From a virus, in IMG/VR virus record IMGVR_UViG_3300028045_001047, positions 1 through 40,597 of that record: a stretch of DNA of 40,597 nucleotides. One strand, 5' to 3'. Positions within the stretch are counted from its first letter, which is position 1, and the number at the start of each line of letters is the position of its first letter. A program made the translations under genes and the position numbers. This document shows, piece by piece, positions 22,403 through 38,095 of this stretch. Below the pieces are notes generated by a model that saw only the letters and a program-made list of their open reading frames with translations, had not been told where the DNA came from and did no database searches.

Positions 22403-22830
22403 ACTTCGACATTAACGATTTGATCGAAGTGGAAATCGGCGGAGATGACGATTTCCTAAAGATCAGGGAAACACTTACACGCATTGGCATTGCTTCGCGA
22501 AAACTCCAAGTTGTAGATGGTGTAGAAAAAATGACACTTTTTCAAAGTTGTCACATTCTACACAAAAGACAAAGATATTATATCGTTCATTTTAAAGAAC
22601 TTTTTGCTCTTGATGGTAAACCATTTAATATTACAGAAGACGACATATCAAGAAGAAATACTATCGCTCGTCTTCTTTCAGAATGGGGCCTCGTGAAATT
22701 GATAGACCCACTCCAGATAGAAGATAAGCAAGCTCCTCTATCCAAGATTAAGGTTTTATCCCATAAAGAAAAGACTGATTGGAAGTTAGCTTCTAAGTAT
22801 AATATAGGTAAAAAATACGTCAGTTCTTAA
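22399..22830 (+). CDS. regA: Translational repressor RegA
   Basis: A 143-residue protein overlapping gp62 by ATGA. FLKIRETLTRIGIASRKLQ, LFQSCHILHKRQRYYIVHFK and the ending are RegA signatures. RegA binds the start regions of early mRNAs and blocks ribosomes. In T4 the polymerase gene 43 follows; here a leftward HNH gene converges on regA, with an 11-base overlap of the 3' ends. Confidence 0.92.
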   Translation: MNFDINDLIEVEIGGDDDFLKIRETLTRIGIASRKLQVVDGVEKMTLFQSCHILHKRQRYYIVHFKELFALDGKPFNITEDDISRRNTIARLLSEWGLVKLIDPLQIEDKQAPLSKIKVLSHKEKTDWKLASKYNIGKKYVSS

Positions 22831-23377
22831 TCCTTATCTCCGCGTACCAAGACCCTAACCAGTGGATCCACGATTTGTGGTCCACTGTTATTTCATAATA
22901 TCTTCTCATATGCGCTAGTTTGTGATAACTGGGATAATATGGTTTGTGTTTCGGTTTCTTTTTATTCGCCGGTGTTCTACCATAATTGTAATTACATTTC
23001 TTACAAGAGCTAAGAATGTTATTCCATTCAGTCAAACCGCCACTTGATGATGGAACATAATGATCAAATGTAACTATATCTTCATTCAACGCGATACCAC
23101 AATAAATACACTCATAATCATCGCGTAATAACAAATTTTTTTTATGCAACGGTAATGTTTCTGGTCTTTTATACATCTTCTTATATACAATAACAGATGG
23201 TATCGTTACCCTATTCTCTACTTTCATCGTCTTAACTACACGATCATAGGTATCCACGACTGTACAATTTTGCGAAAAAAAATCCGACAGAGCATGCTCT
23301 GCCGGAATTGTTTCAAGTTTTAGTAGATTTTTGGGTTGATAGTCTGCGTTTAAAACGAGAGTTTTCAAACCAATCAT
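22820..23377 (-). CDS. HNH endonuclease
   Basis: A 185-residue protein. LVLNADYQP near the start is typical of a free-standing HNH family. The nuclease core has CIYC (90-93), DH (105-106), NN (119-120) and CKKC (125-128), that is, a zinc-supported HNH fold. It may be a homing endonuclease or a terminase-associated or host-DNA nuclease. Start is ATG behind GAGG; a longer upstream frame overlaps the PEP-CTERM-like gene and was rejected. It occupies the place where T4-like genomes usually have gene 43. Confidence 0.85.
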   Translation of the reverse strand: MIGLKTLVLNADYQPKNLLKLETIPAEHALSDFFSQNCTVVDTYDRVVKTMKVENRVTIPSVIVYKKMYKRPETLPLHKKNLLLRDDYECIYCGIALNEDIVTFDHYVPSSSGGLTEWNNILSSCKKCNYNYGRTPANKKKPKHKPYYPSYHKLAHMRRYYEITVDHKSWIHWLGSWYAEIRIKN

Positions 23378-23384
23378 TAGATTT

Positions 23385-23972
23385 TTACCTCGTGTGTGAT
23401 TTCTTCCTACGAAAAGCAATAATACCCATAACACCAAGTGCTGTAAGAATACCAGTTGTTGGTGCTGATGCAATTGTAGTACCATTCTTTACACCAAACA
23501 TATCAATATGTGACACACCTTTGATTTCCATGGGCATAAAATTTTCTTCTGTCAATTCAGAAAACAAGTCAAAAGAACCATATGCCGATACAGGTACATG
23601 CGGATCCAACTTAAAGTAATGATTGATGTTTCCTGCTTTTACAGCAAGTCCAACTACATTCCATGGTGTTGGACTTGTACTGGTTACAGACCAATCAAAA
23701 GAATATTCGCCGGTGGACGAGAAATTTGTTGAAAGAAATTGAATCAACACTTCCTCGTCTTCTGTAATACCATCAACCACGATAACATCAACATCTTGAT
23801 CAAGAATCGCATCAATCAGACCAATGTTATGCGGATCACCTGGCGACAAAAAGTTTGAGCTTGCACTACCACGATACTCGTATTCTCCAGTAAATTCTAT
23901 AGGTATTGACATGGCCGCAGTACTTACTGCTAACAGTCCAATACCCACTACCGTTTTTGTTAAAAAATTCAC
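23385..23972 (-). CDS. Exported protein with PEP-CTERM-like sorting signal
   Basis: A 195-residue protein. Residues 1-22 form a signal peptide (TKTVVGIGLLAVSTAAMS); the body is acidic and beta-rich with few cysteines; the end has SAPTTG (169-174), a hydrophobic helix to 187 and a basic RRKK cluster (188-191). This tripartite end is the plan of exosortase-recognised PEP-CTERM proteins, in the SAP variant. Such proteins are exported, cut and released or displayed. Start is GTG behind a perfect AAAGGAGGT, and a T4 late promoter lies just upstream. A phage origin is odd; see findings. The hydrophobic end could alternatively be a plain membrane anchor. Confidence 0.75.
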   Translation of the reverse strand: MNFLTKTVVGIGLLAVSTAAMSIPIEFTGEYEYRGSASSNFLSPGDPHNIGLIDAILDQDVDVIVVDGITEDEEVLIQFLSTNFSSTGEYSFDWSVTSTSPTPWNVVGLAVKAGNINHYFKLDPHVPVSAYGSFDLFSELTEENFMPMEIKGVSHIDMFGVKNGTTIASAPTTGILTALGVMGIIAFRRKKSHTR

Positions 23973-24008
23973 ATTTTACCTCCTTTCAGTTTTATCATTT
24001 TACACACC

Positions 24009-24016
24009 TATTTATA
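24009..24016 (-). promoter_or_regulatory. T4-type late promoter for the PEP-CTERM-like gene
   Basis: Exact TATAAATA on the minus strand about 37 bases upstream of the GTG start, in non-coding DNA, with the ribosome site AAAGGAGGT between. Confidence 0.75.
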
Positions 24017-24022
24017 AATTGA

Positions 24023-24095
24023 TGGGTCCTGCAAGGATCGAACTTGCGACTTTCGCCTTGTAAGGGCGACACTCTACCATCTGAGCTAAGGACCC
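24023..24095 (-). tRNA. tRNA-Val (UAC)
   Basis: Full cloverleaf on the minus strand: acceptor GGGTCCT/AGGACCC, D-stem GCTC/GAGT, anticodon stem TCGCC/GGCGA with loop CTTACAA (anticodon TAC), T-stem GCAAG/CTTGC with TTCGATC loop. CCA is not encoded (TCA follows the discriminator), so it needs host CCA addition. It has its own promoter upstream. Confidence 0.95.
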
Positions 24096-24113
24096 ATCTC
24101 TTTATATATAACC

Positions 24114-24142
24114 ATTATAACACATTTTAATAAGAATGTCAA
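24114..24142 (-). promoter_or_regulatory. Sigma70-type promoter for tRNA-Val and the leftward genes
   Basis: On the minus strand: TTGACA, 17-base spacer ending TGT, TATAATGG. It lies 18 bases before the tRNA and is divergent to the two promoters at 24242 and 24315. Confidence 0.87.
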
Positions 24143-24177
24143 CCCCCTCCGTAAGTCATTGATTTCATTGAGATTTT

Positions 24178-24216
24178 TCTTATACGCTCTTATAACCTCT
24201 TATGTCTCTTATAATC
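24178..24216 (+). repeat. Four tandem about 10-bp repeats between divergent promoters
   Basis: Units TCTTATACGC, TCTTATAACC, TCTTATGTC and TCTTATAATC start at 24178, 24188, 24198 and 24207, one per helical turn. The 300 bases between tRNA-Val and tRNA-Leu hold no gene, only three promoters and this array, which suggests a protein-binding control site. Confidence 0.6.
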
Positions 24217-24241
24217 TCTAAAAATATTTTAAAAAAAGGGG

Positions 24242-24270
24242 TTGACAACCGACTCTGGATGTGATATAAT
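24242..24270 (+). promoter_or_regulatory. Sigma70-type promoter P1 before tRNA-Leu
   Basis: TTGACA, 17-base spacer ending TGA, TATAATGG, preceded by an A-rich tract. The -35 lies in the palindrome GGTTG-A-CAACC. Confidence 0.87.
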
Positions 24271-24314
24271 GGTACCATGATCTGCAATCAACTTAAAAAA
24301 GTTCCAAAAAAGGG

Positions 24315-24343
24315 TTGACAAACGGTTCAGAATGTGATATAAT
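24315..24343 (+). promoter_or_regulatory. Sigma70-type promoter P2 before tRNA-Leu
   Basis: TTGACA, 17-base spacer ending TGTGA, TATAATGG, about 54 bases before tRNA-Leu. Its first 14 bases equal those of the uvsY promoter. With P1 it forms a tandem pair, both preceded by AAAAAAGGG. Confidence 0.88.
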
Positions 24344-30029: not shown

Positions 30030-30980
30030 ATGGAGTTTAAGATTACAGGTGCAGACACGATTACAACTGATGGTACTGCTGCGAACGCAAAGGGGGGTAC
30101 TGAACGAATGAGGGACGAGCTCATGTCTCGTCTTTCACCAGAACTAAAAGAAGAGTTTAACATTATCCATTCACGAGTGCGTGAAATAAGTAACGACAAG
30201 AAAAATGTATTAGTTCTCCACGACCTTTGGAACGACCCAGAGGCCATGCACCTACGCGAAGAAGGTTCTATTGATAGATTCAATAAACTTGTTTTCGTTT
30301 CTAACTACCAGTTTCAGACTTATCATATGGGCCATGGTGTTCCTTATAATAAGTCTATTGTTCTTCGTAATGCGATTGAAGTGTTTGAAGAACATGAGAA
30401 ACCAAAAGATCAAATTCGTTTAATCTATCATACTACACCACATCGCGGCCTTGAACTCCTTGTTCCTGTATTTGAACATCTTTACCAGTCTTATGGCGAT
30501 AGAATTGTTCTTGATGTATACAGTAGTTTTGATATCTACGGATGGCCGCAACGAAACGAACCATACGAACCACTCTTTGAACAATGTCGTCAACACCCTG
30601 GTATTAACTATCATGGTACTGTTTCTAACGAAGAGGTAAGAGAAGCACTCAAGAAGTCTCACATCTTCGCATATCCGTCTATTTGGATGGAGACTTCTTG
30701 TATTGCAGCGATTGAAGCTATGAGTGCTGGTTGTGCAGTGGTTTGTCCTAACTATGGTGCATTACCAGAAACAACAGGTGGTCTTGCGACTGTTTATCCA
30801 TGGTCAGAAGACACTAACTACCATGCAAATCAATTCGCAAATGTATTGAAGATCGTCATTGATAACTTCTGGCACGAAGGTCTGCAAGGTAAGTTGAAAT
30901 TCACCAAGACCTATGCAGATAATCTATATAATTGGGACACTCGTATCGAAGAGTGGAATGCTTTGTTGAGAAGTTTATAA
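30030..30980 (+). CDS. Glycosyltransferase, GT4-like (GT-B fold)
   Basis: A 316-residue protein. GGTERMRDEL near residue 23 resembles a GT-B donor loop; LIYHTTPHRGLELLVPVFEHL is the usual linker; the C-terminal domain has FAYPSIWMETSCIAAIEAMSAGCAVV with the E-x7-E motif. It would transfer a sugar from a nucleotide donor, probably in LPS or capsule synthesis, given KdsA next door. It ends facing the exostosin-like gene, with a 6-base overlap. Confidence 0.85.
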   Translation: MEFKITGADTITTDGTAANAKGGTERMRDELMSRLSPELKEEFNIIHSRVREISNDKKNVLVLHDLWNDPEAMHLREEGSIDRFNKLVFVSNYQFQTYHMGHGVPYNKSIVLRNAIEVFEEHEKPKDQIRLIYHTTPHRGLELLVPVFEHLYQSYGDRIVLDVYSSFDIYGWPQRNEPYEPLFEQCRQHPGINYHGTVSNEEVREALKKSHIFAYPSIWMETSCIAAIEAMSAGCAVVCPNYGALPETTGGLATVYPWSEDTNYHANQFANVLKIVIDNFWHEGLQGKLKFTKTYADNLYNWDTRIEEWNALLRSL

Positions 30981-31598
30981 AATATCTTTTAAATTTTCTG
31001 GAAGAGAAAATTTATTTCTGGCCTTAATAAAATTTTCTTCAAGTGTTGTATGATCTATTTTTTTTGGTAATTGATCATCGTCCCATTGATAGAAAAACTC
31101 CTCTATGAAATCTTCGCATAGAGGAGTTTTTCTAAAAATTATAGGCACTGATTTTACCATCATAGATTCTATAAATCGATATGTCCATAACGCATTTTTA
31201 TCTCCCGGCCAATTTAATTGATGTGGACACAATGTGTATTTAGAACGTGACATATCTAAAAAATATTCATAATTCATTTTATTCTTATTTTCTACTATTC
31301 TTCCTTCCTGGTTGAATTTAATGACACTATTTTGTTTTCCAATAAAATTTTCTATTATCTGTTTTCTAGAATTATTATTACCAGGATGACCATTGAAATA
31401 AAAAGATATTATTTTTTTGTTATTATGAAATTTTTTAGCCTCTATCCAAAATGAATCTGGATATATTATAGGTAACCGAATTTCATTTATTTTTGAATAA
31501 CCTAAATCATGATTAATTTCAATTCTATATTTCTTATAATTTAACCCGCGTTCTTTTAAGGCTTCATGTAAGAGAATTGTTTGTCTAAGATGATTCAT
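30975..31598 (-). CDS. Exostosin-like glycosyltransferase
   Basis: A 207-residue protein. KYTLCPHQLNWPGDKNALWT followed by RFIESMMVKSVPIIF is the core of exostosin/GT47-like proteins (acidic-Ala-x-RxxE..xxxxPVI pattern). The N-terminal donor half is short, so it may be partial or a minimal form. Lys/Asn/Ile-rich and A+T-rich like its neighbours. Its start overlaps the end of the aminotransferase-like gene. Confidence 0.65.
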   Translation of the reverse strand: MNHLRQTILLHEALKERGLNYKKYRIEINHDLGYSKINEIRLPIIYPDSFWIEAKKFHNNKKIISFYFNGHPGNNNSRKQIIENFIGKQNSVIKFNQEGRIVENKNKMNYEYFLDMSRSKYTLCPHQLNWPGDKNALWTYRFIESMMVKSVPIIFRKTPLCEDFIEEFFYQWDDDQLPKKIDHTTLEENFIKARNKFSLPENLKDIL

Positions 31599-32788
31599 TT
31601 GTATTGATCAATAAATTTTTCTATTGTTTTGTGTAATCTAATGAACATACTATTTGCCATACCGTGATGCACTGGAAGTAGAACACAATTTTTCATGACA
31701 TTATCCGCATTCGAATATCCACTTTCATTAATCTTTTTATCAAATAACTGAGACATTGGTTGTCTTAAAATATTACCAGTAAAACACACTCTTGTTTGTA
31801 TATCATTTTTTTCTAAGTATATTTGAAACTCCTTTCTAGTAAAAGGAGCAAACGAAGACAATAGTATTGGAAATGCTAACCACGCGGTTTGAGTATTTTT
31901 AGTTTGCTCTGGGTTTACAAAAAAATCTAATCCCTCAAAGAAATTAATTTGTCGATCAAAGTTTTCTTGACGAAGTTTCATGTTATCGGATAATTTTTGT
32001 AATTGAACTAATCCAAACGATGCACCAACTTCATTCCCTTCTAGGTTATATCCAGGTAAAGAAAAGATGAATTTTGCGTCATATTCCAAATTATCTACAC
32101 TAATATTAAATCTATTTTCTATTTTTTCACTTTCTTCAAAAAGACTTGAAGATCTTCCCCAGCTTCTCAATAGCAATGCGCGTTCTATTACTTCATCATC
32201 ATTTAAACAAAGAGCTCCACCATTTCCAGCACAATTTATGATATGAGAACCATAAAAACTTGTAATGCTCATATCAGAATATTGACCCGTAGATATTCCA
32301 TTTATTTCAGATCCTAATGTATCTGCACTATCTTGTATAACTTTTAAATTATACTTATTTGCTATTCTTCTTATTTCAGGCCAATTACAAATGTTTCCTA
32401 AAAGATCTGGTGCTAATATAGCAACAGTATTATCTGTTATCATATACTCTATTTGATTTTCATCTATACAAAAAGTTCTTTCTTTCACATCAACAAAAGC
32501 GGGAATTAAATTATTTTTTACAATACTACTGACAGTCGTGCCAAATGTTAATGCTGGTGTAATCACTTCAGATCCTTTAGGAAAATCAAATGATTCTATT
32601 CCTAAATGCAACGCACTAGATCCACTATTCACATATAAGCATTTTTTCTTTTTAAAAATTCTTGCTATTTTTTCTTCAAATAATTTACTGTATTTTCCCA
32701 TCTGTGTAGATTCGTGTAAACATTTTACCACAGCATCAATTTCTTCTTGGCCATAAACGGTTTTGGCATAAGATATTTTTTCATTCAT
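31595..32788 (-). CDS. CDP-4-keto-6-deoxyglucose 3-dehydratase-like PLP enzyme
   Basis: A 397-residue DegT/DnrJ/EryC1/StrS-family protein. D153 in IQDSADTLG would hold the PLP ring. In SFYGSHIINCAGNGG the lysine that binds PLP in aminotransferases is replaced by His (H182), the hallmark of the 3-dehydratases ColD and RfbH/E1. With cytidylyltransferase and 4,6-dehydratase genes beside it, the likely reaction is C3 deoxygenation of CDP-4-keto-6-deoxyglucose. E1-type enzymes need a reductase partner (E3), which I do not see. Overlaps the upstream rfbG-like gene by 8 bases. Confidence 0.82.
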   Translation of the reverse strand: MNEKISYAKTVYGQEEIDAVVKCLHESTQMGKYSKLFEEKIARIFKKKKCLYVNSGSSALHLGIESFDFPKGSEVITPALTFGTTVSSIVKNNLIPAFVDVKERTFCIDENQIEYMITDNTVAILAPDLLGNICNWPEIRRIANKYNLKVIQDSADTLGSEINGISTGQYSDMSITSFYGSHIINCAGNGGALCLNDDEVIERALLLRSWGRSSSLFEESEKIENRFNISVDNLEYDAKFIFSLPGYNLEGNEVGASFGLVQLQKLSDNMKLRQENFDRQINFFEGLDFFVNPEQTKNTQTAWLAFPILLSSFAPFTRKEFQIYLEKNDIQTRVCFTGNILRQPMSQLFDKKINESGYSNADNVMKNCVLLPVHHGMANSMFIRLHKTIEKFIDQYK

Positions 32789-33809
32789 ACATATATTCCT
32801 CTATTTGTTCGATTGAAAACTTTTTCATATCCTTTTTGTTTATATGAGAGATATACCAATCAAATGTTTTTTCTAAACATTTTTCTATAGACCATTTAGG
32901 AAACCAATTCAAACTATTCTTAGCCTTATTGATGTCTAATTTTAAAAGTTTGTGTTCATGTAAAACACTATCTTTCTCATACGACCATGTAAAGTCGTTT
33001 AGTATATTTTTTTTACAATAATCTAATATATATTTAACCGATTTAATATCATCGTCTTCGGGCCCAAAATTCCACGCATCGCAATATTTTTCAGATTTTT
33101 TATATAAATTTTCTGCTAAAATCATATAACCACATAGAGGTTCTAATACATGTTGCCATGGTCTTATTGCGTCAGGATATCTTATAATAAGTTTTTCTTT
33201 TTTTGTATAGGATCTTATTATATCCGGTATAATTCTATTATCAGATAGATCTCCTCCTCCTATAACATTGCCTGCTCTTGTAGTAGCTAGGGGTATATTA
33301 TAACTTTTTCTAAAAGAATTACTTAATAGTTCACTGCATCCTTTACTACTACTGTAGGGATCATGGCCGCCCATTCTTTCATTTTCTCTATATGGCCAAA
33401 TTATTTCTTTATTTTCATAACATTTGTCTGAAGTTACGTTAACGATACTTTTAATACTAGAATTTTTTTTACATGCTTCTAAAACATTCAATGTACCTAT
33501 TACATTTGTCATGTATGTATCGTAAGGATTCTTATAAGATTCTATAACAAGAGGTTGGGCTGCTAAATGAAAAACTATTTCGGGTTGAAATTTTTCTATA
33601 GTTTTAAAAAGATTTTTTCTGTCTGTTATGCAAAAATTATTATGTTGAATATCATTATTAATCAAATGTATTGAATTTTTAGATATATTTAAACCGTAAC
33701 CACAGACATTTGCTCCTAAATAATTTAACCATAAAGATAACCAACTACCTTTGAATCCTCTATCACCAGTAATAAAAACTTTTCTATTTTTCCAAAAATC
33801 TCTATTCAC
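32781..33809 (-). CDS. rfbG: CDP-glucose 4,6-dehydratase
   Basis: A 342-residue SDR-type enzyme. TGDRGFKGSW (14-23) is the NAD-binding loop special to CDP-glucose dehydratases; VTSDKCYEN (125-133) and Y152-xxx-K156 (PYSSSKGCSELL) form the active site; RAGNVIGGGD and RPWQHVLEPL complete the family pattern. It converts CDP-glucose to CDP-4-keto-6-deoxyglucose. It stands between the genes for the preceding and following steps. Confidence 0.93.
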   Translation of the reverse strand: MNRDFWKNRKVFITGDRGFKGSWLSLWLNYLGANVCGYGLNISKNSIHLINNDIQHNNFCITDRKNLFKTIEKFQPEIVFHLAAQPLVIESYKNPYDTYMTNVIGTLNVLEACKKNSSIKSIVNVTSDKCYENKEIIWPYRENERMGGHDPYSSSKGCSELLSNSFRKSYNIPLATTRAGNVIGGGDLSDNRIIPDIIRSYTKKEKLIIRYPDAIRPWQHVLEPLCGYMILAENLYKKSEKYCDAWNFGPEDDDIKSVKYILDYCKKNILNDFTWSYEKDSVLHEHKLLKLDINKAKNSLNWFPKWSIEKCLEKTFDWYISHINKKDMKKFSIEQIEEYMYE

Positions 33810-33810
33810 T

Positions 33811-34581
33811 TTACCAATTTTTCCAAGGTGCGTTTGTTTGCCATAGAGATTCTAATATATTTTTATCTGGTAGTGTGTCCATTGGTCTCCAAAATCCTTC
33901 ATGTTTAAAAGCTTTCAGTTCTCCTCTTTTTGCTAAATTTCGTAAAGGAGTTTCTTCCCAAATAGTAGTATCGTTTTCAATATAACCAATCACTTTGGGA
34001 GACAATACAAAAAACCCAGCATTTATCATCGAACCGTCTCCGTCAGATTTTTCTTGAAATTTTTTTATAGTATCTCCTTCTAATTCTAGATTACCAAATC
34101 TTCCAGGAGGAAAGGCTGTTGTCATTGTTGCTAATTTTTTATGAGATTTATGATACTCTATAGATTTTTTTACATTTATATTTCCGATACCATCTCCATA
34201 AGTAAAACAGAATAATTCATCTTCTGAAACATAATCTTTCACTCTTCTCAATCTTCCGCCGGTCATTGTATCTAATCCAGTATCAATTAAATTTATATTC
34301 CAATCTTCAATATCATTATTATAAAATTTAATATGATTGTTTTTTAAATTTAGATAGATATCGGAATTTTTTCTATGATAATTTAGAAAATAATCTTTTA
34401 TATAATCTCCTTTGTAACCACAACAAACGATAAAATCGTTTACACCATAAGAAGAATAAAGTTTCATTATGTGCCATAATATAGGTTTATTTCCTATTTC
34501 TACCATGGGTTTTGGTTTATATACTGTTTCTTCGCTTAATCTAGTACCTAGACCTCCCGCAAGTATTACACATTTTATCAT
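33811..34581 (-). CDS. rfbF: Glucose-1-phosphate cytidylyltransferase
   Basis: A 256-residue nucleotidyltransferase. LAGGLGTRL (7-15) and KPKPM (22-26) are the nucleotide-binding motifs; TYGDGIGN, INAGFFVLSPKVI and WRPMDT are typical of the cytidylyltransferase branch. It makes CDP-glucose, the first step for dideoxyhexoses. ATG chosen behind GGAAAG; a TTG 15 bases earlier is less likely. The start overlaps the stop of a 30-codon frame (ATGA). Confidence 0.93.
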   Translation of the reverse strand: MIKCVILAGGLGTRLSEETVYKPKPMVEIGNKPILWHIMKLYSSYGVNDFIVCCGYKGDYIKDYFLNYHRKNSDIYLNLKNNHIKFYNNDIEDWNINLIDTGLDTMTGGRLRRVKDYVSEDELFCFTYGDGIGNINVKKSIEYHKSHKKLATMTTAFPPGRFGNLELEGDTIKKFQEKSDGDGSMINAGFFVLSPKVIGYIENDTTIWEETPLRNLAKRGELKAFKHEGFWRPMDTLPDKNILESLWQTNAPWKNW

Positions 34582-34670
34582 AAGAAATCTTTCCAAATAA
34601 ATGGTTTTTTATTATTATAATTTTTATACCAAATAAAGATGTTTAAAGAGGGTTGTTGAAAACTTTGCAT
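34578..34670 (-). CDS. 30-codon frame coupled to rfbF, possible gene remnant
   Basis: MQSFQQPSLNIFIWYKNYNN and a short end, WKDFL, whose stop overlaps the rfbF start as ATGA. The overlap suggests that ribosomes reach rfbF through it. It reads across the oxygenase-like stub in another frame. It may be the tail of a deleted gene. Confidence 0.35.
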   Translation of the reverse strand: MQSFQQPSLNIFIWYKNYNNKKPFIWKDFL

Positions 34671-34701
34671 TTTCAATTTTATCTAAAATATATTTAAACA
34701 T
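34624..34701 (-). pseudogene. N-terminal stub of a possible 2OG-Fe(II) oxygenase-like gene
   Basis: A 25-codon frame, starting across the pyruvyltransferase-like stop, reads KIENAKFSTTLFKHLYLV and then stops. This resembles the opening of 2-oxoglutarate oxygenases in phages (KIE-AxF...PFxHLYI). The catalytic part is absent, so this would be a remnant left by a deletion. Identification from so short a piece is weak. Confidence 0.35.
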
Positions 34702-35404
34702 TATCTTTCACTATATCTATTAACTGTTTTTGATTATAGTGTGTGTAATCGAAAAAAATAGGTTTCTCATAAGATGAAGCTTTTTTTACTTCTAAGTTTA
34801 TTGAAGAAAAATAATCTTTAAACTTTACATCATCTCCTGTAAGTTTATTTACGCTTTTTGCCCATGAGGAAGGAATTCCATAAGAATGAGCGACTATTAT
34901 ACCATGTAAAGAAGACGATATAATTTTTTCACATTCAGAAATTTCTTCAGCTACCCGCAAAGGATTATTATTAATCACATTAATAATCTTATATTCATTT
35001 TTATATTTTTCGTTTATTAACTCATAATCAACATAATGAGGTACAATTCCTATTTTATGTTTTTTTATTTTCTCTGGACAAAATAATGGTAATATGGTTG
35101 CAGCATCTCCATATATTTCTGGACATTTTCCACCAGATTCCAATATTTTTTTTCTAGTTAATGGTCCTCTGACAAATTTATAATCTGCATTGGGATTAAT
35201 TTTGTCATTAGCGTCTATGATACCAGAGCCAAAAACTTTCATATCATTTCTAGCAAATCTTATTATAGAACCAATCATCATAGCATCAGATATGTCTATG
35301 TTATTTGTCATATTAAATTTTTTTATTTTTAAAAAATTTAATATAAATGGTGTTAAAAAATCTCCAAAATTTGGTTTAGAATATACACCCCAAAAAAAAT
35401 TCAT
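34694..35404 (-). CDS. Polysaccharide pyruvyltransferase-family protein
   Basis: A 236-residue GT-B-like protein. NFGDFLTPFILNFL near the start, FVRGPLTRKKILESGG with YGDAATILP in the middle, and SSLHGIIVAHSYGIPS near residue 170 are the motifs of PF04230 (CsaB/WcaK-like). Such enzymes add pyruvyl ketals to surface sugars; some members are glycosyltransferases. It starts in a TAATG overlap with the SDR stop. Strongly A+T-rich. Confidence 0.8.
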   Translation of the reverse strand: MNFFWGVYSKPNFGDFLTPFILNFLKIKKFNMTNNIDISDAMMIGSIIRFARNDMKVFGSGIIDANDKINPNADYKFVRGPLTRKKILESGGKCPEIYGDAATILPLFCPEKIKKHKIGIVPHYVDYELINEKYKNEYKIINVINNNPLRVAEEISECEKIISSSLHGIIVAHSYGIPSSWAKSVNKLTGDDVKFKDYFSSINLEVKKASSYEKPIFFDYTHYNQKQLIDIVKDNV

Positions 35405-36030
35405 TAAACATTTCCTCCATGCATCTGAATAACTGTTCTGTTAATATAAGGTTGTTCATATAACAATGTGTATATCAATCTGGATACTTCATATGATTGT
35501 ATAAGTCTTTTCATCGGATGATTTTTTCTTTTTTTATTAACATTTTCTAAATCTTTTCTTCTTTGGGTCATACCAGAATCTTCTATAGCCGAAGGAGCAA
35601 TTCCCACAAGCTGTTGTTTGGGAGTTCTTAACTCCTTTCTTTCAATATATTGATTGAGTAAAGCTTTACTCAATGCGTAAGTATTATCATATGATCCAAC
35701 AAACGCACTATAGGAACTTATTATACAAATTCTAGCTTTATCATTGTACTCTATTATCTTATCACACATTTCAACTACACTAATGAAATTTGTATACATG
35801 CTATTTTCTTTTTCCGCATCTGTTAATTCATATGATTTTTTTGGATACATTACTCCGTGACAAAAGACATATCTATCTGCATCTAGATGATTATCTATTT
35901 CTTCTGTTCTTATTTCGATTGGCGGTAGGCCAAAGTTCTTGTTATTCGGATTAACTCCTTTGAGTGAAATTATATATTTAAAATTTTTGGCTATAGTGGT
36001 TTTATGACCTGTAATAACGACTTTATTCAT
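35404..36030 (-). CDS. Short-chain dehydrogenase/reductase
   Basis: A 208-residue SDR. The N-terminal glycine motif is altered (TGHKTTIAKN in place of TGxxxGIG); N81, S105/S106 and Y118-xxx-K122 (YALSK) form the catalytic set. It could reduce the 4-keto group of the CDP-sugar made by its neighbours, as final ketoreductases do, but that is inference from context. It is shorter than most SDRs (about 250). Confidence 0.75.
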   Translation of the reverse strand: MNKVVITGHKTTIAKNFKYIISLKGVNPNNKNFGLPPIEIRTEEIDNHLDADRYVFCHGVMYPKKSYELTDAEKENSMYTNFISVVEMCDKIIEYNDKARICIISSYSAFVGSYDNTYALSKALLNQYIERKELRTPKQQLVGIAPSAIEDSGMTQRRKDLENVNKKRKNHPMKRLIQSYEVSRLIYTLLYEQPYINRTVIQMHGGNV

Positions 36031-37505: not shown

Positions 37506-37832
37506 CTAAAATCCTATACTTTCACCACACCCACACGTTGTTTTCACATTTGGATTATCTATCACAAATGATTGTGAGAAGATTGTGTCTTTAAAATCTA
37601 AAGTAGAACCTTCGAGATACATCATGCTCATTGGATCTACCACCACTCTTTCTCCTATGTATATATCATCTTCTTCAGGTTTAGATATGTCAAAGTTATA
37701 CTTGAATCCGGTACAGCCACCACCTTGTATTTCTATACGAAACACGTTATCGTTAGGTTTTGGCGCAAGTCCCATTCCATCTCCATATAAGACGAGTTCC
37801 ACTCTTTTCTGTGCAGCTTCTGATATATTCAT
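37506..37832 (-). CDS. A-type iron-sulfur carrier (IscA/ErpA family)
   Basis: A 108-residue protein with the three conserved cysteines, C40 (GGGCTGFKY) and C100/C102 (TTCGCGES). It would carry or deliver Fe-S clusters. Phage versions are known from aquatic T4-like phages. Chosen start is the ATG in an ATGA overlap with the upstream membrane-protein stop, with GGCGGA before it; a TTG 15 bases earlier is unlikely. Confidence 0.92.
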   Translation of the reverse strand: MNISEAAQKRVELVLYGDGMGLAPKPNDNVFRIEIQGGGCTGFKYNFDISKPEEDDIYIGERVVVDPMSMMYLEGSTLDFKDTIFSQSFVIDNPNVKTTCGCGESIGF

Positions 37833-38095
37833 TTTGTATTCCGCCAAATATCTTTCTCAATATTATTTCGTTTTTTCTGCGCATTTATCTTTTCTAAATG
37901 CTTTTTTGATATTTTGATTTGTCTGCGTTTCTCAAACCAAATATCAATATATTTCTTCATGGTGTATAGAACAGCCATTACTATAAGTGTAATAACTAAC
38001 TCAACAAACCATGGATATCCAGTACCCAGTGATACACCCCAAAGATTCACTCCTTCATTTTGATGTGTTTCTATTGTTATTGTTTTCTGTTGCAT
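37829..38095 (-). CDS. Small membrane protein with basic cytosolic tail
   Basis: An 88-residue protein: a 25-residue polar start, one membrane span (about 29-46, PWFVELVITLIVMAVLYTMK), then a long Lys/Arg-rich helix (EKRRQIKISKKHLEKINAQK). Tight overlaps on both sides place it in the same operon as the IscA-like gene and nrdB. Function unknown. Confidence 0.65.
   Translation of the reverse strand: MQQKTITIETHQNEGVNLWGVSLGTGYPWFVELVITLIVMAVLYTMKKYIDIWFEKRRQIKISKKHLEKINAQKKRNNIEKDIWRNTK

Follow-up and report, generated by a model that had tools for sequence, protein, structure and literature searches.

The stretch of DNA analysed here, referred to below as the window, is a virus record of 40,597 bases from IMG/VR, whose genes follow the order seen in a marine T4-like phage, Methylophilales phage Melnitz. 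The genes shared in synteny are those for the prohead protease, scaffold, gp23, uvsY, helicase, a gp55-like protein, gp47, gp46, peptide deformylase, gp45, gp44, gp62 and regA. The interval between regA and DUF932 is a small divergent region containing the gene under study, which encodes a predicted exported protein; in order, the region comprises an HNH endonuclease gene (-), the exported-protein gene (-), tRNA-Val (-), tRNA-Leu (+) and DUF932 (+) (Table 1). A scan with the clamp-loader protein brought up close relatives of this phage, two of which, L010 and L012, have homologues of the exported protein in the corresponding slot. The family is thus known from three phage records, all of them fragments. 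By clamp loader, the nearest isolates are Stenotrophomonas phage DLP6 (59.7%) and Melnitz (58.9%), followed by pelagi- and cyanomyoviruses; the capsid protein is nearest to Synechococcus phages (62%) and the ribonucleotide reductase to an Alcaligenes phage (63%). Naming a host from the nearest isolates was given up, since these three proteins disagree and indicate no consistent host.

Table 1. Coordinates of the features at the locus and elsewhere in the window.
Feature	Position	Strand	Basis or remark
Exported-protein gene	23385..23972	-	encodes 195 aa from a GTG start; tail PEP-CTERM-like
Signal-peptide-like N-terminus, aa 1-22 (MNFLTKTVVGIGLLAVSTAAMS)	23907..23972	-	sequence, hydropathy
Acidic body, aa 23-168	23469..23906	-	22 D/E against 5 K/R, counted from sequence
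Tail motif SAPTT, aa 169-173	23454..23468	-	alignment; siblings IAPET, AAPET, SAPET
C-terminal hydrophobic helix, aa 174-187 (GILTALGVMGIIAF)	23412..23453	-	14 residues; sequence
Basic cluster RRKK, aa 188-191	23400..23411	-	invariant in all four copies
Shine-Dalgarno AAAGGAGGT	23978..23986	-	sequence; perfect, 6 nt ahead of start codon
T4-type late promoter TATAAATA	24009..24016	-	exact; 36 nt ahead of start codon
Nine-codon frame MIKLKGGKM	23969-23998	-	spans Shine-Dalgarno; end overlaps the GTG start of the exported-protein gene
tRNA-Val (TAC)	24021..24096	-	ARAGORN; upstream of and co-directional with exported-protein gene
Sigma-70 (early) promoter TTGACA-N17-TATAAT	24114..24142	-	perfect; ahead of tRNA-Val
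Three perfect sigma-70 promoters (TTGACA-N17-TATAAT, TG before the -10)	24114-24343	-/+	pointing outward from tRNA region; one on minus strand before tRNA-Val, two in tandem on plus strand before tRNA-Leu and DUF932
HNH endonuclease gene	22820..23377	-	PF14279 and PF01844; downstream, 7 nt past exported-protein stop codon
Intrinsic-terminator-like hairpin in HNH frame	23283-23306	-	strong, with eight T; about 70 nt past HNH start
Lipoprotein-like phage gene	28108-28566	+	glycine zipper and 17-kDa outer-membrane antigen domain (PF16998, PF05433)
Surface-sugar gene island	30975-36030	-	low G+C (about 28%); GT47-like, DegT-like aminotransferase, CDP-glucose dehydratase-like, cytidylyltransferase-like, polysaccharide pyruvyl transferase; some named by eye from sequence
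ErpA/IscA-type iron-sulphur cluster protein	37506-37847	-	PF01521; phage-encoded, near ribonucleotide reductase gene

Several features were recorded beside the gene of interest. The stem of the hairpin within the HNH frame is apparently not conserved in L012, and the nine-codon frame ahead of the exported-protein gene is not seen in the siblings. Elsewhere, the window carries the surface-sugar island, the lipoprotein-like gene and the iron-sulphur cluster gene listed in Table 1.

The 195-aa open reading frame contains the parts described in the initial annotation, that is, a signal peptide, an acidic body and a SAP-type motif followed by a hydrophobic helix and RRKK. The signal peptide was judged by inspection and hydropathy: the N-terminus reads MNFLTKTVVGIGLLAVSTAAMS/IP, the best 12-residue hydropathy among its first 35 residues is 2.17, and the element is kept in the siblings, whose N-termini read MNFLTKTV.IGLFLVSSAVSA/LPI. 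The body had been described as both acidic and beta-rich; the composition bears out the former, while strands were predicted at low confidence only, in AlphaFold2 models with pLDDT of 41 and 48. These models were too poor for the fold to be assigned by structure search, and the best matches (E 1.0 in PDB, 0.21 in BFVD) are meaningless. No family matched the body, profile matches being confined to the tail, and by eye no further long hydrophobic stretch lies between signal peptide and tail. The C-terminus reads ASAPTT-GILTALGVMGIIAF-RRKK-SHTR, with RRKK standing 4 residues from the end. Among the 1330 open reading frames of at least 80 aa in the window and the related phage loci, the full architecture (signal-like N-terminus, C-terminal helix, basic cluster and upstream Pro) is unique to the exported-protein family. 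Judging from the sequence, we are confident that the protein would be exported.

The L010 and L012 homologues show 52 and 50% identity to the protein of the window and start with ATG at the position equivalent to the window GTG. The protein diverges far faster than its neighbours, the genes adjoining the slot being 85-96% identical; the dN/dS of 0.22 between L010a and L012 indicates that it is under purifying selection. Sibling tails (APETAILTALGFGGILAFRRKK and APETAILAAFGLIGIVAFRRKK) follow the pattern APETAILxAxGxxGIxAFRRKK, in which GxxGIxAF is invariant in all four copies, and the siblings retain both promoter and tail, with half of the remaining protein differing. L010 carries a second, tandem copy with a similar N-terminus and a mostly different middle; at the DNA level, the 3' end of this copy matches the L012 gene almost perfectly. 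A shared tail on differing bodies, as in L010 copies 1 and 2, is the hallmark of a sorting-signal suffix. In L012 and in L010 copy 2 the tail extends about 17-24 residues beyond RRKK, which is unusual for a PEP-CTERM. No homologue of body or tail, bacterial ones included, came to light among isolate phages, plasmids and genomes of 84,980 species, in searches that rely on near-exact short stretches or tblastn and that distant homologues can escape. A separate observation concerns the slot itself: in L012, a sulfotransferase gene (PF03567; 8344-9009, minus strand) lies between the exported-protein and HNH genes, and the slot therefore gains and loses cargo.

The initial annotation had also reported a perfect ribosome site and an exact TATAAATA upstream on the minus strand. 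Both are present, and TATAAATA recurs 33 nt ahead of the ATG in L010 as well as in L012. It is established that T4 and cyanomyoviruses use late sites of the form NATAAATA/TATAAATA; TATAAATA itself is the late site of T4 and resembles the one in cyanomyoviruses (PMC2984593). The number of octamers in the window (8, with 5.5 expected) is uninformative and was set aside in favour of their position. Six of the eight sites precede a gene start on the same strand by 24-48 nt (p about 2e-8), the starts having been hand-picked from the list of open reading frames, and no other permutation of the octamer matches this positional enrichment. Five of these positioned sites fall in the virion-gene region at 0.9-8.9 kb and the sixth precedes the exported-protein gene. 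The sliding clamp and gp55 sigma-like genes are assigned from synteny with Melnitz, the gp55 candidate giving no Pfam match. Late expression of the exported-protein gene is thus well supported by promoter position and by the siblings. Since L010 and L012 lack tRNA-Val and its promoter and keep TATAAATA, late control appears to be the state common to the three phages. No early promoter occurs at the equivalent place in L010 or L012; in the window phage, early read-through is possible because a sigma-70 promoter stands upstream of tRNA-Val and no terminator was detected between this tRNA and the exported-protein gene. The proposal that the protein is made together with the virion proteins is therefore upheld as regards the late promoter, and expression in the window phage may not be purely late. 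The sigma-70 promoter before tRNA-Val belongs to the outward-pointing trio of the tRNA region (Table 1); neither it nor tRNA-Val figures in the initial annotation.

To what extent the tail is a PEP-CTERM signal was assessed with profiles. Scored as a whole, the protein reached 13.0 bits with TIGR02595 (PEP-CTERM; alignment over aa 171-192), below the cut-off of 16, and 10.4 with PF07589, below the cut-off of 20.7. With TIGR02595 the tail alone gave 18.0 bits, above the cut-off, and a six-frame search 16.8, so that the verdict of this model depends on the length scored. In the whole-protein NCBIfam search VPDSG-CTERM scored 13.9 bits at the extreme end (cut-off 22), and the corresponding Pfam search returned the VPDSG-CTERM and PEP-CTERM families again, both below cut-off. 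TIGR02595 is short and noisy: it fires in 12 of 14 control genomes, in 2 of them above the cut-off, and on a 28-codon frame elsewhere in the window. As a control, motif and helix of an 88-residue piece were permuted separately with RRKK kept; of nine tails shuffled in this way a single one still hit TIGR02595, scoring 13.1 bits where the unshuffled piece scored 15.4, and hence composition explains part, not all, of the score. Sibling tails alone align to the extreme C-termini of the models for XDP1, EDSAP-1, THxN and the flocculation protein PepA; with XDP1, the L010 copy 2 tail reaches 19.3 bits (E 9e-4). Models of several sorting classes (VPDSG, PEFG, PFE, LPXTG anchor) also score weakly on the tail. 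No match to GlyGly-CTERM (TIGR03501) or MYXO-CTERM was listed at E 10, and the tail has neither a Gly-Gly motif, the Gly-rich motif of GlyGly-CTERM thus being absent, nor a Cys before the helix. An AcrF8 match on L010a (E 0.16) was rejected as noise. The search against PEP-CTERM profiles suggested along with the initial annotation thus had a mixed outcome: weak but consistent matches to several exosortase-substrate models, with the curated whole-protein cut-offs missed.

Compared with the PEP-CTERM/exosortase system (EpsH, Xrt; TIGR02595, PF07589; Haft, 2006, PMC1569441), the phage protein is alike in having a signal peptide, a motif followed by a helix of about 14 residues and a basic cluster at the C-terminus, an acidic body without known domains, no extra membrane segment, and one tail serving as a suffix on different bodies. 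The body holds few basic residues, and its acidity was counted in favour of the likeness because PEP-CTERM proteins are reported to be poor in basic residues (PMC1569441). In contrast to that system, the protein is encoded by a lytic phage behind a late promoter, carries ASAPTT (window) or APET (siblings) in place of Pro-Glu-Pro, scores below the curated whole-protein cut-off and is accompanied by no exosortase in the phage pieces examined. The exported protein lacks the PEP motif and falls short of the curated cut-off for whole proteins, so that the PEP-CTERM membership put forward initially does not hold and the term PEP-CTERM-like is to be preferred over PEP-CTERM protein. The exosortase-dependent surface protein XDP1 (NF041927) and the EDSAP-1, THxN and floc PepA families resemble it over the last ~28 residues (up to 19.3 bits), whereas the phage body is unmatched and the scores are far under the full-length cut-offs (80-125 bits). 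VPDSG-CTERM (TIGR03778, PF18205) shares the helix and basic end, with up to 20.2 bits (PF18205, L010a tail); however, the phage tail lacks the VPDSG motif, the match begins inside the motif, and the score is under the cut-off. A parallel of another kind is offered by the curli pore genes csgG/csgF of pelagimyophages and Melnitz (PMC9004378), which likewise represent a bacterial surface/biofilm export component carried by marine T4-like phages belonging to the same broad group, although they encode outer-membrane pore proteins whose sequence and mechanism are unrelated to the exported protein.

The reading that we favour, with a probability of roughly 50%, is that of a late exported phage protein whose tail is probably cut by a host exosortase-type enzyme, the acidic body being passed to the surface or matrix. 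Here a lytic T4-like marine phage would transcribe the gene in the late phase, the signal peptide would take the protein over the inner membrane by Sec export, and the C-terminal helix with its basic end would retain it there. A host exosortase-type enzyme would then probably recognise and cut at the SAP-T/APET motif, and the body would be released to the outer surface or matrix where, late in infection, it might for example alter what binds the infected cell and debris. We infer cleavage by a host exosortase from the tail, and likewise a surface location for the body; no exosortase (PF09721) was seen in the phage pieces examined, so that the enzyme would have to be the host's. Any benefit to the phage, including the roles in matrix change, re-adsorption or release put forward initially, is speculative. 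Against this reading stand the missing PEP tripeptide, the sub-cut-off whole-protein scores, the noisiness of TIGR02595, the long tail ends of L012 and L010 copy 2, and the lack of a detected bacterial homologue.

A plain membrane anchor would look similar to an exosortase-type tail, and the main rival, which we hold to be rather unlikely, is accordingly a type I membrane protein with a periplasmic acidic domain, a stop-transfer helix and a positive-inside RRKK, acting late in the periplasm, where it would influence when lysis occurs or exclude superinfecting phages without the help of a sorting enzyme. For such a protein a signal peptide, a helix and a basic end suffice; the absent PEP motif, the low whole-protein scores and the weak CTERM matches given by shuffled tails agree with it, as does the fact that late phage genes frequently act at the inner membrane. 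An anchor, however, has no need of the AP-T motif and GxxGIxAF, yet these are kept across copies half-different elsewhere; moreover, a tail of identical type sits on the second body of L010, and it is specifically to the ends of models for exosortase substrates that the sibling tails align. It is considerably less probable that the tail is recognised by a host system for C-terminal sorting other than exosortase, be it rhombosortase-like or undescribed. Tripartite tails are common to unrelated sorting systems (PMC3237569), and the non-PEP motif together with the weak scores of models from several sorting classes would suit this alternative, but the GlyGly-CTERM and MYXO-CTERM results and the lack of Gly-Gly or Cys before the helix speak against it, and the best full-length-model matches are exosortase substrates. 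Finally, the phage could have picked up a surface-protein gene from a host not long ago and carry it as a passenger that does nothing for the phage. Its rarity (three phage records) and its rapid divergence relative to its neighbours would fit, but the same slot and an own late promoter in three phages, the dN/dS value and the failure of the searches described above to find a close bacterial source render this very improbable.

Extending the favoured reading of host-exosortase processing to the family, we tentatively propose, and here lean slightly towards doubt, that a lytic phage keeps a small family of late exosortase-type substrates with a constant tail and fast-changing bodies, hijacking a host surface-sorting enzyme to put phage proteins on the dying cell and its debris. 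Our literature search, which covered only part of the literature and is therefore weak evidence of novelty, found no report of phage-encoded exosortase substrates. If true, the finding would add a host pathway exploited late by lytic phages, beside the curli pores of related marine phages, and would provide a compact, rapidly evolving substrate for studying exosortase target choice. It would also connect the expression of late phage genes with the surface and matrix of the host, which is where the outcome of re-adsorption and release is settled. The resemblance of the tail to a bacterial surface-address tag suggests that the phage may borrow host surface-sorting machinery late in infection.
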